37,300 bases of DNA from Lachnoclostridium sp. An196 (GTDB lineage Bacteria > Bacillota > Clostridia > Lachnospirales > Lachnospiraceae), in NCBI RefSeq assembly GCF_002160135.1, contig NZ_NFJZ01000018.1:1-37300 (forward strand), given 5' to 3'. The notes beneath the pieces are model-generated. The model was given only the letters and a program-made list of their open reading frames with translations, was not told where the DNA came from and did no database searches. The translations under genes and the position numbers were made by a program. This document shows positions 31,508 to 37,300 of this stretch, piece after piece (within the stretch, counting starts at the first letter, position 1; each line of letters opens with the position of its first letter).

Positions 31508-31588
31508 AATTTATAAACTAATTGGTATTTGAATATAATCCTGCCTGCGCATCCAATGATAGAAGCAAAAGGACAGGAGGATATACAG

Positions 31589-32860
31589 ATGAGATATCGG
31601 ACAGAAACAGATTCCATAGGGAGCAGAGAAGTGCCGGAGAACGCGTATTATGGCATACAATCCATGCGCGCGGCAGAAAATTTCCGCATGACAGGGCTGC
31701 ATATTCATCCGGAAATGATCCGCAGCATGGCGGATGAGAAAGCGGCTGTAGCGGTTACCAACTATGAGACGGGAGCCCTGGATGAGGAAAGAGAAAAAGT
31801 GATTCTCCGCGCATGTGCAGAGATGAAGGAGGGCAGGTTTGACAGTGAGATTATTGTGGATCCGATCCAGGGAGGCGCAGGTACTTCATTAAATATGAAC
31901 GTGAATGAAGTCCTGGCAAACCGTGCCATAGAATTGCTGGGAGGGATCAAGGGGGATTATAAAAGGGTTCATCCCAATGATCATATCAACATGTCCCAGT
32001 CCACGAACGATGTATTTCCCACAGCCGGCAAAATAGCCGCCTGCCGCCTTGTGCAGAAGGCGGAAAAAGAACTGAGGAGACTTCACAAAGCGCTGGAAGA
32101 AAAATCTGTCGAATTCTATCCGGTCATCAAGATGGGAAGGACACAGCTTCAGGACGCGGTACCCATCCGTCTGGGTCAGGAATTTGCATCCTATGCGGCG
32201 GCTGTGGGAAGAGATATAAGGCGCATGGAAACGGCAGCGGGGGAAATGCGGACTTCCAATCTGGATCCTTTCGCAGCGGTATCCGGGAGCGTAAAAGCCT
32301 GTGCGGTTACATTGTCCAAAATAGCCAGCGACCTGCGCCTGATGTCATCGGGCCCGAGGACCGGCCTGGGAGAGATCCTGCTTCCCGGTAAGCAAAATGG
32401 ATCCTCGATCATGCCGGGAAAAGTCAACCCGGTGATTTCGGAAGTGGTCAATCAGGCAGCCTTTCAGATCTTCGGCAATGATGTGACGATTACGCTGGCG
32501 GCGGAATCGGGGCAGCTGGAGTTGAACGCTTTTGAACCGGTAATATTCTATAACCTGTTCCAGGCTGTTGACCTGCTGGGACATGCCGCCGCGACATTTA
32601 CAGACAACTGTATCTGCGGAATACAGGCAGATGCCGCCCGGTGCAAGGCTATGGTAGAAAACAGTGTGGGGACAGCGACTGCTCTGTGCCCGTATCTGGG
32701 ATATACGAAGGCTGCTGAGATTGCCAAGAAAGCGGTGAGAGAAAACAGGAATCTCCGGGAACTTGTTTTAGAGGAGAGATTGATGGATGAGGAAGAACTT
32801 GATAGAGTTCTGGATCCTTATGCGATGACAGAGCCGGGGATACCGGGGAAAATGGATTAG
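31589..32860 (+). CDS. aspA: Aspartate ammonia-lyase lacking an internal segment
   Basis: This is a 423-residue protein. ATG 31589 follows AGGAGG; the earlier in-frame ATG has no ribosome site. It belongs to the aspartase/fumarase superfamily: GGAGTSLNMNVNEVLANRAIE (95-115), SQSTNDVFPTA (136-146), GRTQLQDAVP (183-192), and the catalytic loop GSSIMPGKVN (271-280). Aspartase turns aspartate into fumarate and ammonia. The family is about 465-478 residues. Here EMRTSNLDPF (219-228) directly joins two regions that relatives separate by some 45-50 residues containing the conserved GATAxGTGxN element. The frame is intact, so a product can be made, but substrate binding should be impaired. A fumarase role cannot be excluded. 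Confidence 0.85.
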   Translation: MRYRTETDSIGSREVPENAYYGIQSMRAAENFRMTGLHIHPEMIRSMADEKAAVAVTNYETGALDEEREKVILRACAEMKEGRFDSEIIVDPIQGGAGTSLNMNVNEVLANRAIELLGGIKGDYKRVHPNDHINMSQSTNDVFPTAGKIAACRLVQKAEKELRRLHKALEEKSVEFYPVIKMGRTQLQDAVPIRLGQEFASYAAAVGRDIRRMETAAGEMRTSNLDPFAAVSGSVKACAVTLSKIASDLRLMSSGPRTGLGEILLPGKQNGSSIMPGKVNPVISEVVNQAAFQIFGNDVTITLAAESGQLELNAFEPVIFYNLFQAVDLLGHAAATFTDNCICGIQADAARCKAMVENSVGTATALCPYLGYTKAAEIAKKAVRENRNLRELVLEERLMDEEELDRVLDPYAMTEPGIPGKMD

Positions 32861-32914: not shown

Positions 32915-33795
32915 TGTTTATGAGAGCCGGGGAGACACAAGAGTGAGGGGGGCCATATTGAATGATTGATCGATTGATTGCAGAAGCAACAGAATGTGAT
33001 TTCAAAGTTGCTGTAGAAACAAAAAAGCCAAAAAGTTGGCTGAAAAGTGTCAGCGCCTTTGCAAATGGAGTAGGCGGTTCCTTGATCTTTGGAATTGATG
33101 ACAGCAAGAATGTTGTCGGACTTGCCGACCCACAAGTAGAGGCCGAAGCTATCAGTCGTTTGATTAAAGAGCGTATTACACCGTATCCGAACTTCATTCT
33201 GAAGCCAGAACATGAAAACGAAAAAGATATTCTAGTGTTGACAGTATTTCCGGGACGGACCACTCCCTACTATTATAAGGCGGATGGTGTTCGGGAGGCG
33301 TATATCCGTCTGGGCAATGAAAGTGTTGTTGCTCCCGACCATGTATTAAACCGGTTGCTGTTGAAGGGTATGAATTTGAGTTATGACTCGTTACTCTCAT
33401 CCTATGATTTCCAGGACTACTCCTTTTCCAAACTCCGCGAGAGATACAAAGTGTGGACGGGAAATAGCATGGATGAAAAGCTGTTTGATTCTTTTGAAAT
33501 CAGAGATGAAACAGGAAAGTTGACAAATGCAGGTGCTCTGTTGGCGGATGATTCACCAATTCGAAATTCCAGACTATTTTGCACGCGGTGGGGTGGCCTG
33601 GATAAAAGCGGCGGTTTGGTAGACGCACTGGACAGTGCCGAGTATGCGGGTAGCCTGATCATTTTGCTCAATGAGGGGGTGAGTTTCATTAAGCGGAACA
33701 TGAAAACTATGTGGAAGAAAACGGCGACATCCAGAATCGAAATGCCGGATTATTGTGAGCGCAGTTTTTTTGAAAGTTTAGTCAATGCCCTGATC

Positions 33796-33801
33796 CATCG
33801 T
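33796..33801 (+). repeat. 6-bp direct repeat CATCGT at the left edge of the element
   Basis: CATCGT at 33796-33801 is repeated at 37295-37300, exactly outside both terminal arms. It marks either a duplicated target site or the crossover spacer of a tyrosine recombinase. Confidence 0.75.
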
Positions 33802-33854
33802 TTATGGAAAGCTTTCCATAACCGGTGTTATGTGAAGTTAATAGTTATGCAAAG
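33802..33854 (+). repeat. Left end: four recombinase arm copies
   Basis: In order: TTATGGAAAG (33802), its inverse CTTTCCATAA (33812), spacer CCGGTG (33822-33827), TTATGTGAAG (33828), linker TTAATAG, TTATGCAAAG (33845). The first two form a perfect 20-bp palindrome. The second and third form an inverted pair around 6 bp, as in a tyrosine-recombinase core. Confidence 0.85.
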
Positions 33855-33860
33855 GAAGTT

Positions 33861-33889
33861 CTTGTTTTATCGGAAACAAGGGCTTTTTT
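33861..33889 (+). terminator. Terminator just inside the left end of the element
   Basis: CTTGTTT (33861-33867) pairs with AAACAAG (33874-33880), then GGCTTTTTT. It would stop transcription entering from the host gene. Confidence 0.7.
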
Positions 33890-33929
33890 CTTTCTTTAAC
33901 TTAGCATAAAATCATGATACCTTCAAGAG

Positions 33930-33956
33930 ACAACCACTTATGGTATGAGTGGTTGT
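33930..33956 (+). promoter_or_regulatory. Hairpin before the first recombinase gene
   Basis: ACAACCACT / AGTGGTTGT with a 9-nt loop ends 9 nt before the AAGGAGG ribosome site. A control element for recombinase expression is possible. Confidence 0.45.
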
Positions 33957-33980
33957 AATAAACTCAAGGAGGTTTTCGTG

Positions 33981-35198
33981 ATGAAAACAAAAGATTTACC
34001 AGAGATAACCTCGGCTTTATACGAAAAGTTAAAAGCAGATGGTTACAGCGCCACAGTTCTCGACAACACCCGTTGGATACTGGGGCATTTCGAGAATTAC
34101 TGCCGCAGGAATGGGATCCCTGAAATCACAGTCCCAGTGGCCGCTGTTTTTGTACAGGATTGTTTTGGCTTTGACTATTACAATCTTACGGCACGGATGC
34201 AGTCGGTACTGCGCCGTCCCCTTATGATCCTGATCGAATTCGAGGAATCCGGGAACTATCTCAAAACACATCAGAAAGGTTCTACAACGGAGATCCCTCT
34301 CATTTACAGAGAGCTTTTTCTGGAATACCGTGACGTGATTAATGCTACTTCTTTAAGCCAGAACTCTAAGGAACGAAAGCTGTGGATATTTGTGAAGTAT
34401 TTCGGATATCTGGAACAAAAGGGAATCCTGAAAACAACGGATATCCCTTTTCAGGCCGCCCATGAATATATCAACAGCCTTACCTCTTTTGCGCCTGCAA
34501 CGATCCGGTGTATCAAAACAGTGCTCCGTGAAATCTATGACTGGATGTTTTCGCGCAGCTATACGCCTTACTCCGGCAGGCAGATCTTTCCGATGATCCG
34601 GAAAGATCCCCGGAATAAACTTTTATCCTATTATTCAAAAGAAGAAATCGGGCAGATGCTTTCCTGCATTGACACGGAAACACCTTCCGGCAAATGTGCC
34701 TACAGCATGATCTGTCTCCTGGCTTACCTGGGTATGAGGGCCGGAGACGTGATCAGGCTGAAATTTTCTGATATTAACTGGGAAACGGGAACAATCCATT
34801 ATCAACAGCAGAAAACAGGGAATCCTCTGTCCCTCCCCCTGACCGACGAAGTGAAGTATCCGCTGCTTGATTATATCAAAAACGGACGCCATGAGAGCAC
34901 CGATCCGGAATACATTTTTGTTACCATGTATGCGCCATACACAAAATTTAACAGCACCTCCTCCCTTTACCATCTGGTTGAAAAATGCATGAAAACCGCA
35001 GGCATTAACTATGAAGGAAGGCATCATGGCCCCCATGCCCTCCGACACAGCCTGGCAACAAACATGATGTCGGAAAATGTGCCGATCAGTGCAATCGCGA
35101 ACATACTGGGACATTCCAGTACAAGAACAACCGAAATCTATCTTACGGTGGATGAGACCCACCTGAAAGAACTTTCACTGGAGGTGCCCTGTGTCTAA
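33981..35198 (+). CDS. Tyrosine recombinase, first of the trio (RitA-like)
   Basis: This is a 405-residue protein. ATG 33981 is set by AAGGAGG; an earlier in-frame ATG at 33945 lies in the hairpin. An N-terminal SAM-like/core-binding region (about 1-200) precedes the catalytic domain. The active-site residues are visible: Arg253 in LGMRAGDVI, HALRHSLA (His-x-x-Arg), LGHSSTRTTEIY with the nucleophile Tyr387. It is longer than its two partners, as in described RIT elements. The last 8 nt overlap the next gene. The three proteins probably act together in integration and excision. Confidence 0.92.
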   Translation: MKTKDLPEITSALYEKLKADGYSATVLDNTRWILGHFENYCRRNGIPEITVPVAAVFVQDCFGFDYYNLTARMQSVLRRPLMILIEFEESGNYLKTHQKGSTTEIPLIYRELFLEYRDVINATSLSQNSKERKLWIFVKYFGYLEQKGILKTTDIPFQAAHEYINSLTSFAPATIRCIKTVLREIYDWMFSRSYTPYSGRQIFPMIRKDPRNKLLSYYSKEEIGQMLSCIDTETPSGKCAYSMICLLAYLGMRAGDVIRLKFSDINWETGTIHYQQQKTGNPLSLPLTDEVKYPLLDYIKNGRHESTDPEYIFVTMYAPYTKFNSTSSLYHLVEKCMKTAGINYEGRHHGPHALRHSLATNMMSENVPISAIANILGHSSTRTTEIYLTVDETHLKELSLEVPCV

Positions 35199-36201
35199 AA
35201 CAATGAAAAAAGGAAATGAGCTGCCGCAGTTTACAGGGCCATTCCGGGAGCTGATCCCGGCATATATCTCTTACAAAAGAGCACAGGGTTATAAGATTGG
35301 TGATCCGATTGTTTACCGGCTGAGGGAGATGGATTTGTTCTTTAAAGACAGAGGTATTATGGACATACGGATCACCCGTGAAATGTACGAGGAATGGACT
35401 TCCCATAAACCACCTGAAAAAGAGCAGAACATTCAGAAACGGCGGTCTGCCATATGTGGTTTTGCAAAGTACCTTGTATCCTGTGGTTATCCTGACATTT
35501 ACACCGGACAGGATGATACCCGCATTTTTAAAAGGGATTTTATCCCATATGTTTTTACAGATGAGGAAATCTGCCGGATGTTCCGTGTGCTGCAAGGGTA
35601 CTGTGAAAAATCGCCTGGGTATGAGAATGATGCATTCCGTATGGCAATGCTGCTGTATTATTGCTGTGGTTTCAGAAAATCTGAGGTACTTGATCTCCTG
35701 ATGCAGGATGTCGATTTCCAGACAGGTAAAATTTGTATCCTGAATGGAAAAAATGACGTGAGCCGTATCGTTGTTGCATCCGATACGCTCCTGTTGGAAC
35801 TGAAAGGTTACAGAGATAAATATCTGTCATTTGAAAAACAGGAGGACTACCTCCTGCAGGGGATGAAGGGAAAACGTTATGGCGAATCCACCCTTTACAA
35901 CCGCTTCCATCAGCTTTTGTCAGATGCAAAAATCCCACCGCGAAAAGACGGAGGACGGCAGCGTCTGCATGACATACGCCATACGTTCTGCGTCAGGGCA
36001 TTGGAACAGATGCAGGAAAAAAGCTTTGACCTGTACACGTCCCTTCCGCTTCTGTCGCGTTATCTTGGACATAAACACATCACAGAAACGGAGTATTACC
36101 TGCGGCTGCTGGAAGAACACTTTGGCGGGATACTGGAACAGTCGGATTCCTGCCATCCGGGGATATTTCCGAAAGAGGAAGGCGGTGATATAGATGGATA
36201 A
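35191..36201 (+). CDS. Tyrosine recombinase, second of the trio (RitB-like)
   Basis: This is a 336-residue protein starting at GTG 35191 with GGAGGTG upstream, inside the end of the first gene (8-nt overlap). The catalytic residues are Arg in CCGFRKSEVLDL, HDIRHTFC, LGHKHITETEYYL with the tyrosine nucleophile. The N-terminal core-binding part (1-110) is complete (RELIPAYISYKRAQGYKIGDPIVYRLREMD). No frameshift is seen, so the enzyme is probably active. It ends in an 8-nt overlap with the third gene. Confidence 0.92.
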   Translation: MSKTMKKGNELPQFTGPFRELIPAYISYKRAQGYKIGDPIVYRLREMDLFFKDRGIMDIRITREMYEEWTSHKPPEKEQNIQKRRSAICGFAKYLVSCGYPDIYTGQDDTRIFKRDFIPYVFTDEEICRMFRVLQGYCEKSPGYENDAFRMAMLLYYCCGFRKSEVLDLLMQDVDFQTGKICILNGKNDVSRIVVASDTLLLELKGYRDKYLSFEKQEDYLLQGMKGKRYGESTLYNRFHQLLSDAKIPPRKDGGRQRLHDIRHTFCVRALEQMQEKSFDLYTSLPLLSRYLGHKHITETEYYLRLLEEHFGGILEQSDSCHPGIFPKEEGGDIDG

Positions 36202-37201
36202 GAACCGCTTCTCTTACCATCTGACGAAATATTTCGCTGAATACCTTCCAAAACAGACTGCGGCATCTCCTAATACAATCCGCTCTTACCGTGATACGTT
36301 TGTACAGCTCATGGAATTCTATAAGACAGAATACCGGCTGCCTCCCGAAAAGCTGGAATACAAAGAATTCAATGCCGAACGGATCGAAAGCTTTCTTGTC
36401 TATCTGGAGGAAGTACGCAAAGTCAGTGTCAGCACGAGAAACCAGCGTCTGGCCGCAATCCATGCCTTCTTCCGATATCTCCAGTACCGCGACCCTGCCG
36501 GGTTTGAACAGTGTGCGCAGATACTTACTGTTCCGTTTAAGAGAGCCCCTGTCAAACCGATGAATTACATGAGCGCCGAAGAAGTGCGGCTGCTTTTTTC
36601 GATTCCCGACCAGAAGAAAGATGACCAGCTGCGGGATCTGGCGATCCTGGTATTACTTTATGAAACAGGGGCCAGGGTGCAGGAACTGATCGACCTTATT
36701 CCTCCAAGCATCCGCTTTTCATCAACGGTTACAGCGGAACTTCATGGAAAGGGAAACAAAACAAGGTTCGTGCCTGTCAATGCGGATGCCGCCGCGATTG
36801 TCAGGAATTACATCCGCCGGTGTAACCGGATAAATGCAGACGAGCCATTGTTCGTAAACCGCAAAGGCGAGAAACTCACCCGTGCAGGAATACAGTACAT
36901 CATAGATAAGTATGTGTCAACTGCCCGAAGGTTAAGACCGGATATGTTCAGAAACAGAGTAACCAACCACTGTTTTCGCCACAGCAAGGCAATGCATTTG
37001 TTAGAGGCTGGTGTGAACCTGATATACATTCGTGATCTGCTGGGACATACATCTGTAGTCACAACGGAGATTTATGCGAAAACAAATCCAAAGATTAAGG
37101 AAGAACAGTTGAAAAAGCATAGCGCCTCTGTGAAAACAGCGCATAAATACAGCCAAAAACAAAAGGAGGATTTGATTGACTGGTTGAAAAACAACCTGTG
37201 A
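36194..37201 (+). CDS. Tyrosine recombinase, third of the trio (RitC-like)
   Basis: This is a 335-residue protein with ATG 36194 inside the end of the second gene and GGAGG-like GGCGGTGAT upstream. It is the most XerC/D-like of the three: a core-binding domain with TIRSYRDTFVQLMEFYK and RNQRLAAIHAFFRYLQ, then YETGARVQELIDL (Arg), GKGNKTRFVPVN (the beta-hairpin Lys region), NHCFRHSKAMHLLEAGVNLIYIRDLLGHTSVVTTEIY with all remaining catalytic residues. The stop is at 37199-37201, 11 nt before the right-end arm array. Confidence 0.93.
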   Translation: MDKNRFSYHLTKYFAEYLPKQTAASPNTIRSYRDTFVQLMEFYKTEYRLPPEKLEYKEFNAERIESFLVYLEEVRKVSVSTRNQRLAAIHAFFRYLQYRDPAGFEQCAQILTVPFKRAPVKPMNYMSAEEVRLLFSIPDQKKDDQLRDLAILVLLYETGARVQELIDLIPPSIRFSSTVTAELHGKGNKTRFVPVNADAAAIVRNYIRRCNRINADEPLFVNRKGEKLTRAGIQYIIDKYVSTARRLRPDMFRNRVTNHCFRHSKAMHLLEAGVNLIYIRDLLGHTSVVTTEIYAKTNPKIKEEQLKKHSASVKTAHKYSQKQKEDLIDWLKNNL

Positions 37202-37212
37202 GATGCTAAAAT

Positions 37213-37294
37213 TTATGCAAAGTAAAAACTGCCGGATTTCCCATAAAACCAATGGATTCGGCAGTAACTTTGCATAACTATTAACTTTGCATAA
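37213..37294 (+). repeat. Right end: three arm copies and a long stem-loop
   Basis: TTATGCAAAG (37213-37222) pairs with CTTTGCATAA (37268-37277). Inside that, ACTGCCG (37228-37234) pairs with CGGCAGT (37259-37265), giving a long stem. Linker CTATTAA and the terminal arm CTTTGCATAA (37285-37294) follow. The stem may also stop transcription of the recombinase operon. Confidence 0.82.
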
Positions 37295-37300
37295 CATCGT

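Follow-up and report, generated by a model that had tools for sequence, protein, structure and literature searches.

The window analysed here is the complete contig NZ_NFJZ01000018.1 (C10; 37300 bp of a 3.25-Mb, 30-contig genome) of Lachnoclostridium sp. An196, which ends within the repeat of a mobile element of the 'recombinase in trio' (RIT) type. Three tyrosine recombinase open reading frames (ORFs) lie in tandem on the plus strand at this end of the contig: ritA (33981–35198; 405 aa from the inner ATG at 33981, or 417 aa from an upstream ATG at 33945), ritB (35191–36201; 336 aa, GTG start) and ritC (36194–37201; 335 aa). An earlier note, made from the letters of the sequence, had described three full recombinase genes of these lengths, and the ORF coordinates bear it out, including overlaps of exactly 8 nt between ritA and ritB and between ritB and ritC. 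PF00589 was matched by all three proteins in Pfam. The Arg, His-x-x-Arg, late His and Tyr that had been seen in place fall on positions that are invariant or nearly so in alignments including the window's own proteins: R253, K278, H352, R355, H378 and Y387 of RitA (405-aa numbering; 36 sequences), R162, K187, H260, R263, H294 and Y303 of RitB (31 sequences) and R161, K186, H259, R262, H285 and Y294 of RitC (35 sequences). We take these positions to be the catalytic ones.

The inverted ends of the element span 32 nt at 91% complementarity, with 25 of 28 bp matching in register, and no further gene lies between them, as the earlier note had also held. At the left end lies a 20-bp perfect palindrome, TTATGGAAAGCTTTCCATAA (33802–33821), with a 6-bp core on either side, one between it and the target and the other between it and the element. 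The outer core on the palindrome side, CATCGT (33796–33801), covers His-Arg codons of the target, while the inner core, CCGGTG (33822–33827), reads CACCGG outward from the element. The left terminal arm, TTATGTGAAGTTAATAGTTATGCAAAG (33828–33854), has two direct TTATGNNAAG half-sites 17 bp apart; the right terminal arm (37268–37294) is its inverted copy, likewise with two direct half-sites at this distance, and is followed by the core of the element-side junction, CATCGT (37295–37300), which joins the 3' half of the target gene on contig C22. The limits proposed before, 33802–37300, fit to the base an inserted unit of 3499 bp made up of palindrome (20), inner core (6), body (3467) and one core (6). 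The palindrome and the second core are additions to the earlier description of the element.

Assignment to the RIT class, which the note had made on layout, is supported by gene order, overlaps, size, inverted ends and the domain features of RitA and RitC, and the outcomes that the note had listed as refuting its reading were not seen. The comparison of the proteins was by tblastn and profile matches, which place the genes in the same order as the trio of Cupriavidus necator pHG1 (L078). That trio shares the ritA-ritB-ritC order, short overlaps, length of ~3.5 kb and inverted ends, and at one of its ends it, too, has a 20-bp palindrome with mirrored 6-bp cores; it and other known RITs differ in their targets. 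RitA proteins are described as having two sequential core-binding domains and RitC proteins an extra conserved C-terminal helix (PMC8138268). Both were found here. The RitA model (mean predicted local distance difference test score (pLDDT) 85.7, predicted template-modelling score 0.59) has two four-helix units (6–90 and 107–191) ahead of the catalytic domain, and the RitC model has an additional C-terminal helix at 321–334 (mean pLDDT of the last blocks 65–78), with L331 almost invariant in the alignment. The other features of the class are also present, namely three consecutive genes A-B-C with complete catalytic sets and with overlaps in the usual range of about 4–8 nt, a size of ~3.5 kb (3499 bp), inverted ends of 28–34 bp (25/28 bp) and a palindrome at an end (33802–33821).

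The closest named matches of RitA were from Candidatus Blautia merdipullorum (93%), Candidatus Lachnoclostridium stercoravium (97–98%, partial) and a Lachnospiraceae (77%). Among structures, the RitA model matched XerA best, with XerH and others lower; RitC was the best-scoring of the three proteins against the XerC and XerD models, yet stayed below the Xer cut-offs. The note's statement that such trios are described mainly in other phyla holds in so far as most RITs come from alpha- and beta-proteobacteria, but the available passages of the same source also name Firmicutes (PMC3414803).

Two copies in two target genes

An insertion in an AlbA_2 gene had been proposed, and both halves of this gene (gene A) could be located. 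The 5' half, at 32962–33801 on the plus strand (280 aa, split at ...VNALI-His-Arg), matches PF04326 (AlbA_2; E 2.2e-21), and the 3' half, on contig C22, matches PF13749 (HATPase_c_4; E 1.9e-27), the split falling between the two parts. When C10 and C22 are rejoined, a 481-aa AlbA_2-HATPase_c_4 ORF results. The last 109 bp of the window also occur at the start of C22 and at the end of contig C12, and the 109 bp from the inner core onward (33822–33930) occur at the start of contig C1; these four different flanks imply two copies of the element in the genome. Rejoining C12 and C1 gives a second AlbA_2-HATPase_c_4 ORF, and the further copy that the note had suggested looking for is thus found in the same genome in a different gene of this kind. 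Comparison of the copies was limited to their identical 109-bp ends, the element body being present once in the assembly.

Both target genes are cut at the same codons, between NAL(I/V)-His-Arg and Asp-Tyr, and the two copies, A and B, are oppositely oriented, copy B running against its gene. Copy A reads 5' half-(CATCGT)-TTATGGAAAGCTTTCCATAA-(CCGGTG)-body-(CATCGT)-3' half, and copy B, in element orientation, 3' half-(CCGGTG)-body-(CATCGT)-palindrome-(CCGGTG)-5' half. Read as outer, inner and element-side, the cores are CATCGT, CACCGG and CATCGT in A and CACCGG, CATCGT and CACCGG in B, the inner core that is unused in A being the one used in B. The two copies correspond to a single circle opened at different points, both being cyclic permutations of body-(CATCGT)-palindrome-(CCGGTG), and on this pattern copy A would have entered through the right core and copy B through the left core.

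Empty sites, which the note had also proposed to search for, were found in four genomes of the genus, in the form of gene A homologues. These cross the joint without an insert and with a single 6-bp core, CACAGA in G717 (92 of 120 bp alike), CATCGC in G715 (91), CACCGC in G721 (79) and CACCGT in G320 (78); the same 3.5 kb is not carried by all relatives. Recent movement of the element, earlier raised as a possibility, is supported because two copies with identical 109-bp ends occupy two different genes, because these homologues of gene A are insert-free, and because the junctions of relatives fall at the same codons of other genes of AlbA_2-HATPase_c_4 type. This support comes from sequence comparison, and no transposition event was seen.

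A proposed twin attachment site around one palindrome

The standard site of a tyrosine recombinase has two arms around a 6-bp spacer. From the two copies, the palindrome, its spacing, the constant gene half beside it and the two orientations, all of which can be read directly, we infer a circular intermediate, and the element is most likely a RIT transposon that would, as a circle, have a twin attachment site around one palindrome. The circle joint is predicted to begin with the arm of the right end, followed by core R (CATCGT), the 20-bp palindrome and core L (CCGGTG), and to close with the arm of the left end. Together with one element arm and half of the palindrome, each of the two cores would form a complete recombination site with 10-bp inverted arms and a 6-bp spacer, the palindrome serving as an arm shared by two putative sites. 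The dif site likewise has a 6-bp spacer between short inverted arms, and the TTATG arms of the element presumably resemble those of dif.

Either core could recombine with a target core in a conserved codon motif, here the His-Arg of NAxxHRDY, and the core used would decide the orientation of the element. After integration, the palindrome would adjoin the gene's 5' half and the bare element end the 3' half; the target's own 6 bp would be retained at the element-side junction, and those brought in by the element would come to lie at the palindrome side. Under this placement rule, each element end would retain the 6 bp from the target that it entered last, and the inner core, being unused, would document a previous site. 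A single jump between A and B, in either direction, would explain all six cores, given one coincidence or preference, namely that the carried core equalled the core of the new target. With two direct half-sites at each end, the joint would hold six half-sites in mirror order. As a guess at the roles of the enzymes, RitA, with its two N-terminal helical units, might span the doubled half-sites, and RitB or RitC might hold the palindrome.

If correct, the twin-core site gives exact ends and predicts the circular joint to the base, and the 6-bp cores could account for the 'sequence variation at the ends' of RITs. The inner core of a RIT would become readable as a trace of a former target, and two linked sites with different arms are suggested as a reason why several recombinases could be needed. 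Twin docking sites would thereby help to explain the movement of a little-understood class of elements.

The palindrome in related elements

In the clade of relatives inserted in AlbA_2 genes, the palindrome adjoins the 5' half (NxxxH-X) in 8 of 8 palindrome junctions. Eleven rows were available for bare ends; 2 stop at a contig end and the other 9 all begin His-(Arg/Lys), continuing as H(R/K)xY in 8 and as HREEY in one (L014). Counted by insertion, and with both ends of L042 included, 7 elements lie one way (A, L044, G268, G373, G201, G029 and the left end of L042) and 6 the opposite way (B, the older RIT of G067, L043, L045, G269 and the right end of L042). Eight inner cores of the clade, none of them within a gene, all start CAY, followed by an Arg/Lys codon in 7 and by ACG in one.

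A search for the palindrome followed by 6 bp and TTATG, allowing at most 2 mismatches, was carried out in 392 genomes of the order and was positive in 8, own genome included; the reversed pattern was absent among the matches listed. A RIT trio lies on the site in 4 of the 7 other pattern-bearing genomes (L059, L063, L065 and L066; RitA 25–35% identical), and none was present in the stretch fetched for the other 3. The pattern occurs without RIT genes in the fetched stretch at L060, L061, L062/L075 and L064. At L060 and L064 (G548:C1 near 1436693), the palindrome with 6 bp and TTATG may be a remnant, a non-autonomous relative or chance.

Plasmid RITs of Cupriavidus, Rhodococcus, Agrobacterium, Rhizobium, Novosphingobium, Ancylobacter, Caballeronia and Ruminococcus also carry the palindrome. 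Two pairs share a type of target, an intron gene for L081 and L083 and a PDDEXK nuclease gene (by the annotation of L223) for L086 and L226; in each pair the elements are opposite and the palindrome is on the same target side. L224 was dropped as the second orientation case for the L086 target because its two ends both have the palindrome and the same part of the target; its place was taken by L226, which is internally deleted and has one palindrome. Pfam searches with 8 rejoined target proteins, 7 of which matched, gave IstB, IstA-like transposase, amidoligase, C5 DNA methylase, Asn synthase, group II intron reverse transcriptase and RitC-like recombinase; the eighth (L069) is presumably Rpn-like, judged by a motif. 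The ritC-like target, in L155 (palindrome near 2637), is split near its catalytic HxxRH motif, and RIT elements can therefore be targets of RIT elements. At L071:5749–9238 (contig C28 of G067) lies another RIT, a distant one with palindromes at its two ends; it adjoins the C-terminal ritC piece of the older RIT of the window's clade and is apparently inserted in that ritC.

Test of the palindrome on RITs of viral contigs

The rule was first fixed on discovery loci (a 20-bp palindrome with at most 2 mismatched pairs, a 6-bp spacer and an arm match of at least 4/5) and then applied to RIT trios found by protein profile in IMG/VR contigs. Sixty-three trios fell into 41 clusters at 95% identity, 36 of them with both ends readable. 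L087 (no trio annotated) and L094 (no trio) were left out before counting, as were L076, L077, L081 and L111, which are truncated, disrupted or lacking a complete trio; L068, L080, L082, L084, L091 and L093 belong to the discovery set, outside the 36 test clusters. The palindrome with 6-bp spacing was present in 25 of the 36; 12 have it at the ritA end alone, 13 at the ritC end alone and none at both. One of the 12, L129, is contig L048, which had been found earlier through the palindrome itself, so the new evidence amounts to 24 of 35 clusters.

When the spacer was scanned over all 41 clusters, 27 hits fell at spacer 6 and 0–2 at spacers 0–5 and 7–15. Controls were positive in 5/820 windows inside genes, 16/820 far flanks and 6/820 base shuffles (0.6–2%), and in 18/1110 dinucleotide shuffles; an alternative choice of cluster representatives gave 25/37. 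A looser look found the palindrome with 3 mismatches and fully mirrored cores in three of the misses (L162, L169 and L193), and L080 of the discovery set has it with 2 mismatches. For RITs as a class we consider it probable that the site has two slots, a palindrome being common to two complete sites, either of which would be usable for integration in either orientation, with each end keeping the 6-bp address of the last target on that side.

Comparison of cores

The other end could be located for 39 of 53 palindrome ends (some rows, such as L148 and L154, being doubtful, and L042 and L071 supplying two rows each). Cores were equal between outer and element-side positions in 14 of these, between outer and inner in 9 and between inner and element-side in 11, with a mean agreement of 4.69, 4.36 and 4.15 of 6 bases, respectively; across loci, outer and inner cores agreed at 1.60 of 6. 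Strict core identity as a general rule was rejected on the count of just 14 in 39. Codon positions were then compared in 23 entries picked for a clear open frame across the joint (L042 supplies two, and not all are independent). Outer-inner differences fell on third positions in 21 of 36 cases, on first in 9 and on second in 6 (binomial p 0.002), and 15 of 23 differences between outer and element-side cores were on third positions (binomial p 0.003). Outside the AlbA_2 clade, third positions held 10 of 17 outer-inner differences in 15 elements (p 0.04). This bias suggests that the inner core corresponds to these codons in a different member of the target gene family; unused, it is apparently still like target codons, as a fossil of an earlier insertion would be.

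Where close intact homologues exist, the native core can be placed. In L092, native GGTGGC is at the element side (3/3 intact homologues) and GGGGGT at the palindrome side; in L226, native TCGACA is at the element side, as in homologue L223, and TCGATG at the palindrome side. From these two clear cases in relatives we infer the core-transfer rule given above. A first idea, drawn from L044, L074 and L063, had put the native core at the palindrome side and the carried core at the element side, and was ruled out by the homologues of L092 and L226. Intact homologues of the L159, L176 and L156 targets had no match in plasmids, and a search for one of the L088 target returned L088 alone.

Weighing of alternatives

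The palindrome might be a terminator or regulatory hairpin carried by an element that has one ordinary attachment site per end. It lies outside genes and could form a hairpin, and Van Houdt et al. 2012, in the passages available, noted a palindromic sequence and assigned it no role (PMC3414803). A regulatory hairpin would, however, keep its position relative to the genes, whereas the palindrome stands at either element end (12 against 13) yet beside the same target half in 8/8 clade junctions, with 6 bp on both sides, and this explanation is quite improbable. The constant target half would also be expected of a palindrome already in the target before insertion, as a docking site or the scar of an earlier element, but the palindrome is absent from the homologous genes of the four sister genomes and from intact homologues of the L092 and L086 targets, and its sequence varies symmetrically between element lineages, which makes this origin hardly credible.

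Granted twin sites, the two orientations could still come from in-place inversion of the body, the inner and element-side sites being inverted to each other so that recombination between them would flip it. This is unlikely: with the same circle and the core rule holding, the outer core of B should be CATCGT, but the sequence there, CACCGG, belongs to the other slot. Lastly, the genome could have just one element, from which misassembly produced the second copy and the cyclic permutation; all four junctions do lie at contig ends, and the assembly contains a single body. One copy can have only two flanks, however, whereas four different flanks rejoin into two AlbA_2-HATPase_c_4 ORFs, and we give an artefact very little credence.

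Several points weigh against the twin attachment site. The evidence consists of assembled sequences, and no circle, excision product or read was seen; the exact circle-joint pattern had 0 matches in viral contigs, and the flank pairings C10-C22 and C1-C12 rest on gene continuity, not reads. Outer and element-side cores are equal in both host copies, so A and B are no test of the core rule. Under the fixed rule, 11 of the 36 test clusters had no palindrome at either end, as had L068, L082, L084, L091 and L093 of the discovery set; one of the 25 hits, L134, is GC-rich, has no matching arm at the other end and is probably due to chance, and 3 of 23 unrelated integrase loci also matched (in a longer stretch scanned in both directions). 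The other-end arm was not located for four plasmid RITs with the palindrome (L085, L089, L090 and L096). L042, L095 and L224 carry one palindrome at each end. Outside the two palindromes, all three have the same part of the target in inverted copies (L224 by eye), an arrangement that calls either for a rearrangement, by recombination of two copies in opposite orientation, or for a mixture in the assembly; L224 comes from a complete plasmid.

Relation to known systems

Strand-biased circularizing elements (SEs) are like the proposed model in having a 6-bp spacer, a carried core on one side with a native core on the other, and few selected targets, and the core pattern of L092 and L226 matches what has been reported for both SEs (a 6-bp 'fingerprint' and 'footprint') and Tn554 (copying of 6 bp) (PMC10214605). 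SEs encode IntA, Tfp, IntB and Srap and have one spacer in the circle joint, whereas the element encodes three recombinases and would have two spacers around the palindrome. With only three full recombinase genes between its ends, against intA, tfp, intB and srap, identity with an SE was rejected. The Tn554 family also has tyrosine recombinases, a specific target and 6 bp copied from the donor site, but encodes TnpA, TnpB and TnpC with one large recombinase, and the available passages mention no palindrome (PMC10214605). Recombinases of 405 (417), 336 and 335 aa do not correspond to TnpA, a large TnpB and TnpC, and this identity was likewise set aside. GInts share three integrase-type genes with the element but differ in their four-gene ginABCD operon on genomic islands (PMC5385486, PMC10214605).

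RITs are an established class, but the available passages offer no mechanism for their ends, target choice or movement, and the proposed twin-core attachment site is the new part. RIT ends were said in 2012 not to fit the usual recombinase sites (PMC3414803), and target specificity and movement of RITs are listed as not formally tested (PMC10214605), both in the passages available. A twin-core site was not found in passages of open papers on 'recombinase in trio'; Van Houdt 2009 and Ricker 2013, which were outside this search, may treat the palindrome further.

Other observations

At L118:8242 and L122:8135, a palindrome with two cores lies between one RIT end and the apparent end of another RIT. 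In Rhodococcus opacus pRho-VOC14-L (L219/L225), ~2.4 kb separate the palindrome from the ritA match, possibly as cargo or a nested insertion. L082 and L095 (GenBank MT838034 and MT839266) are short 'Bacteriophage sp.' records that consist mostly of the RIT trio. In the window, the ORF at 31529–32860 adjoins the target gene and has a LysR-type regulator next to it on the other strand; both are named from motifs, by which we take the ORF to resemble class II fumarase/aspartase.

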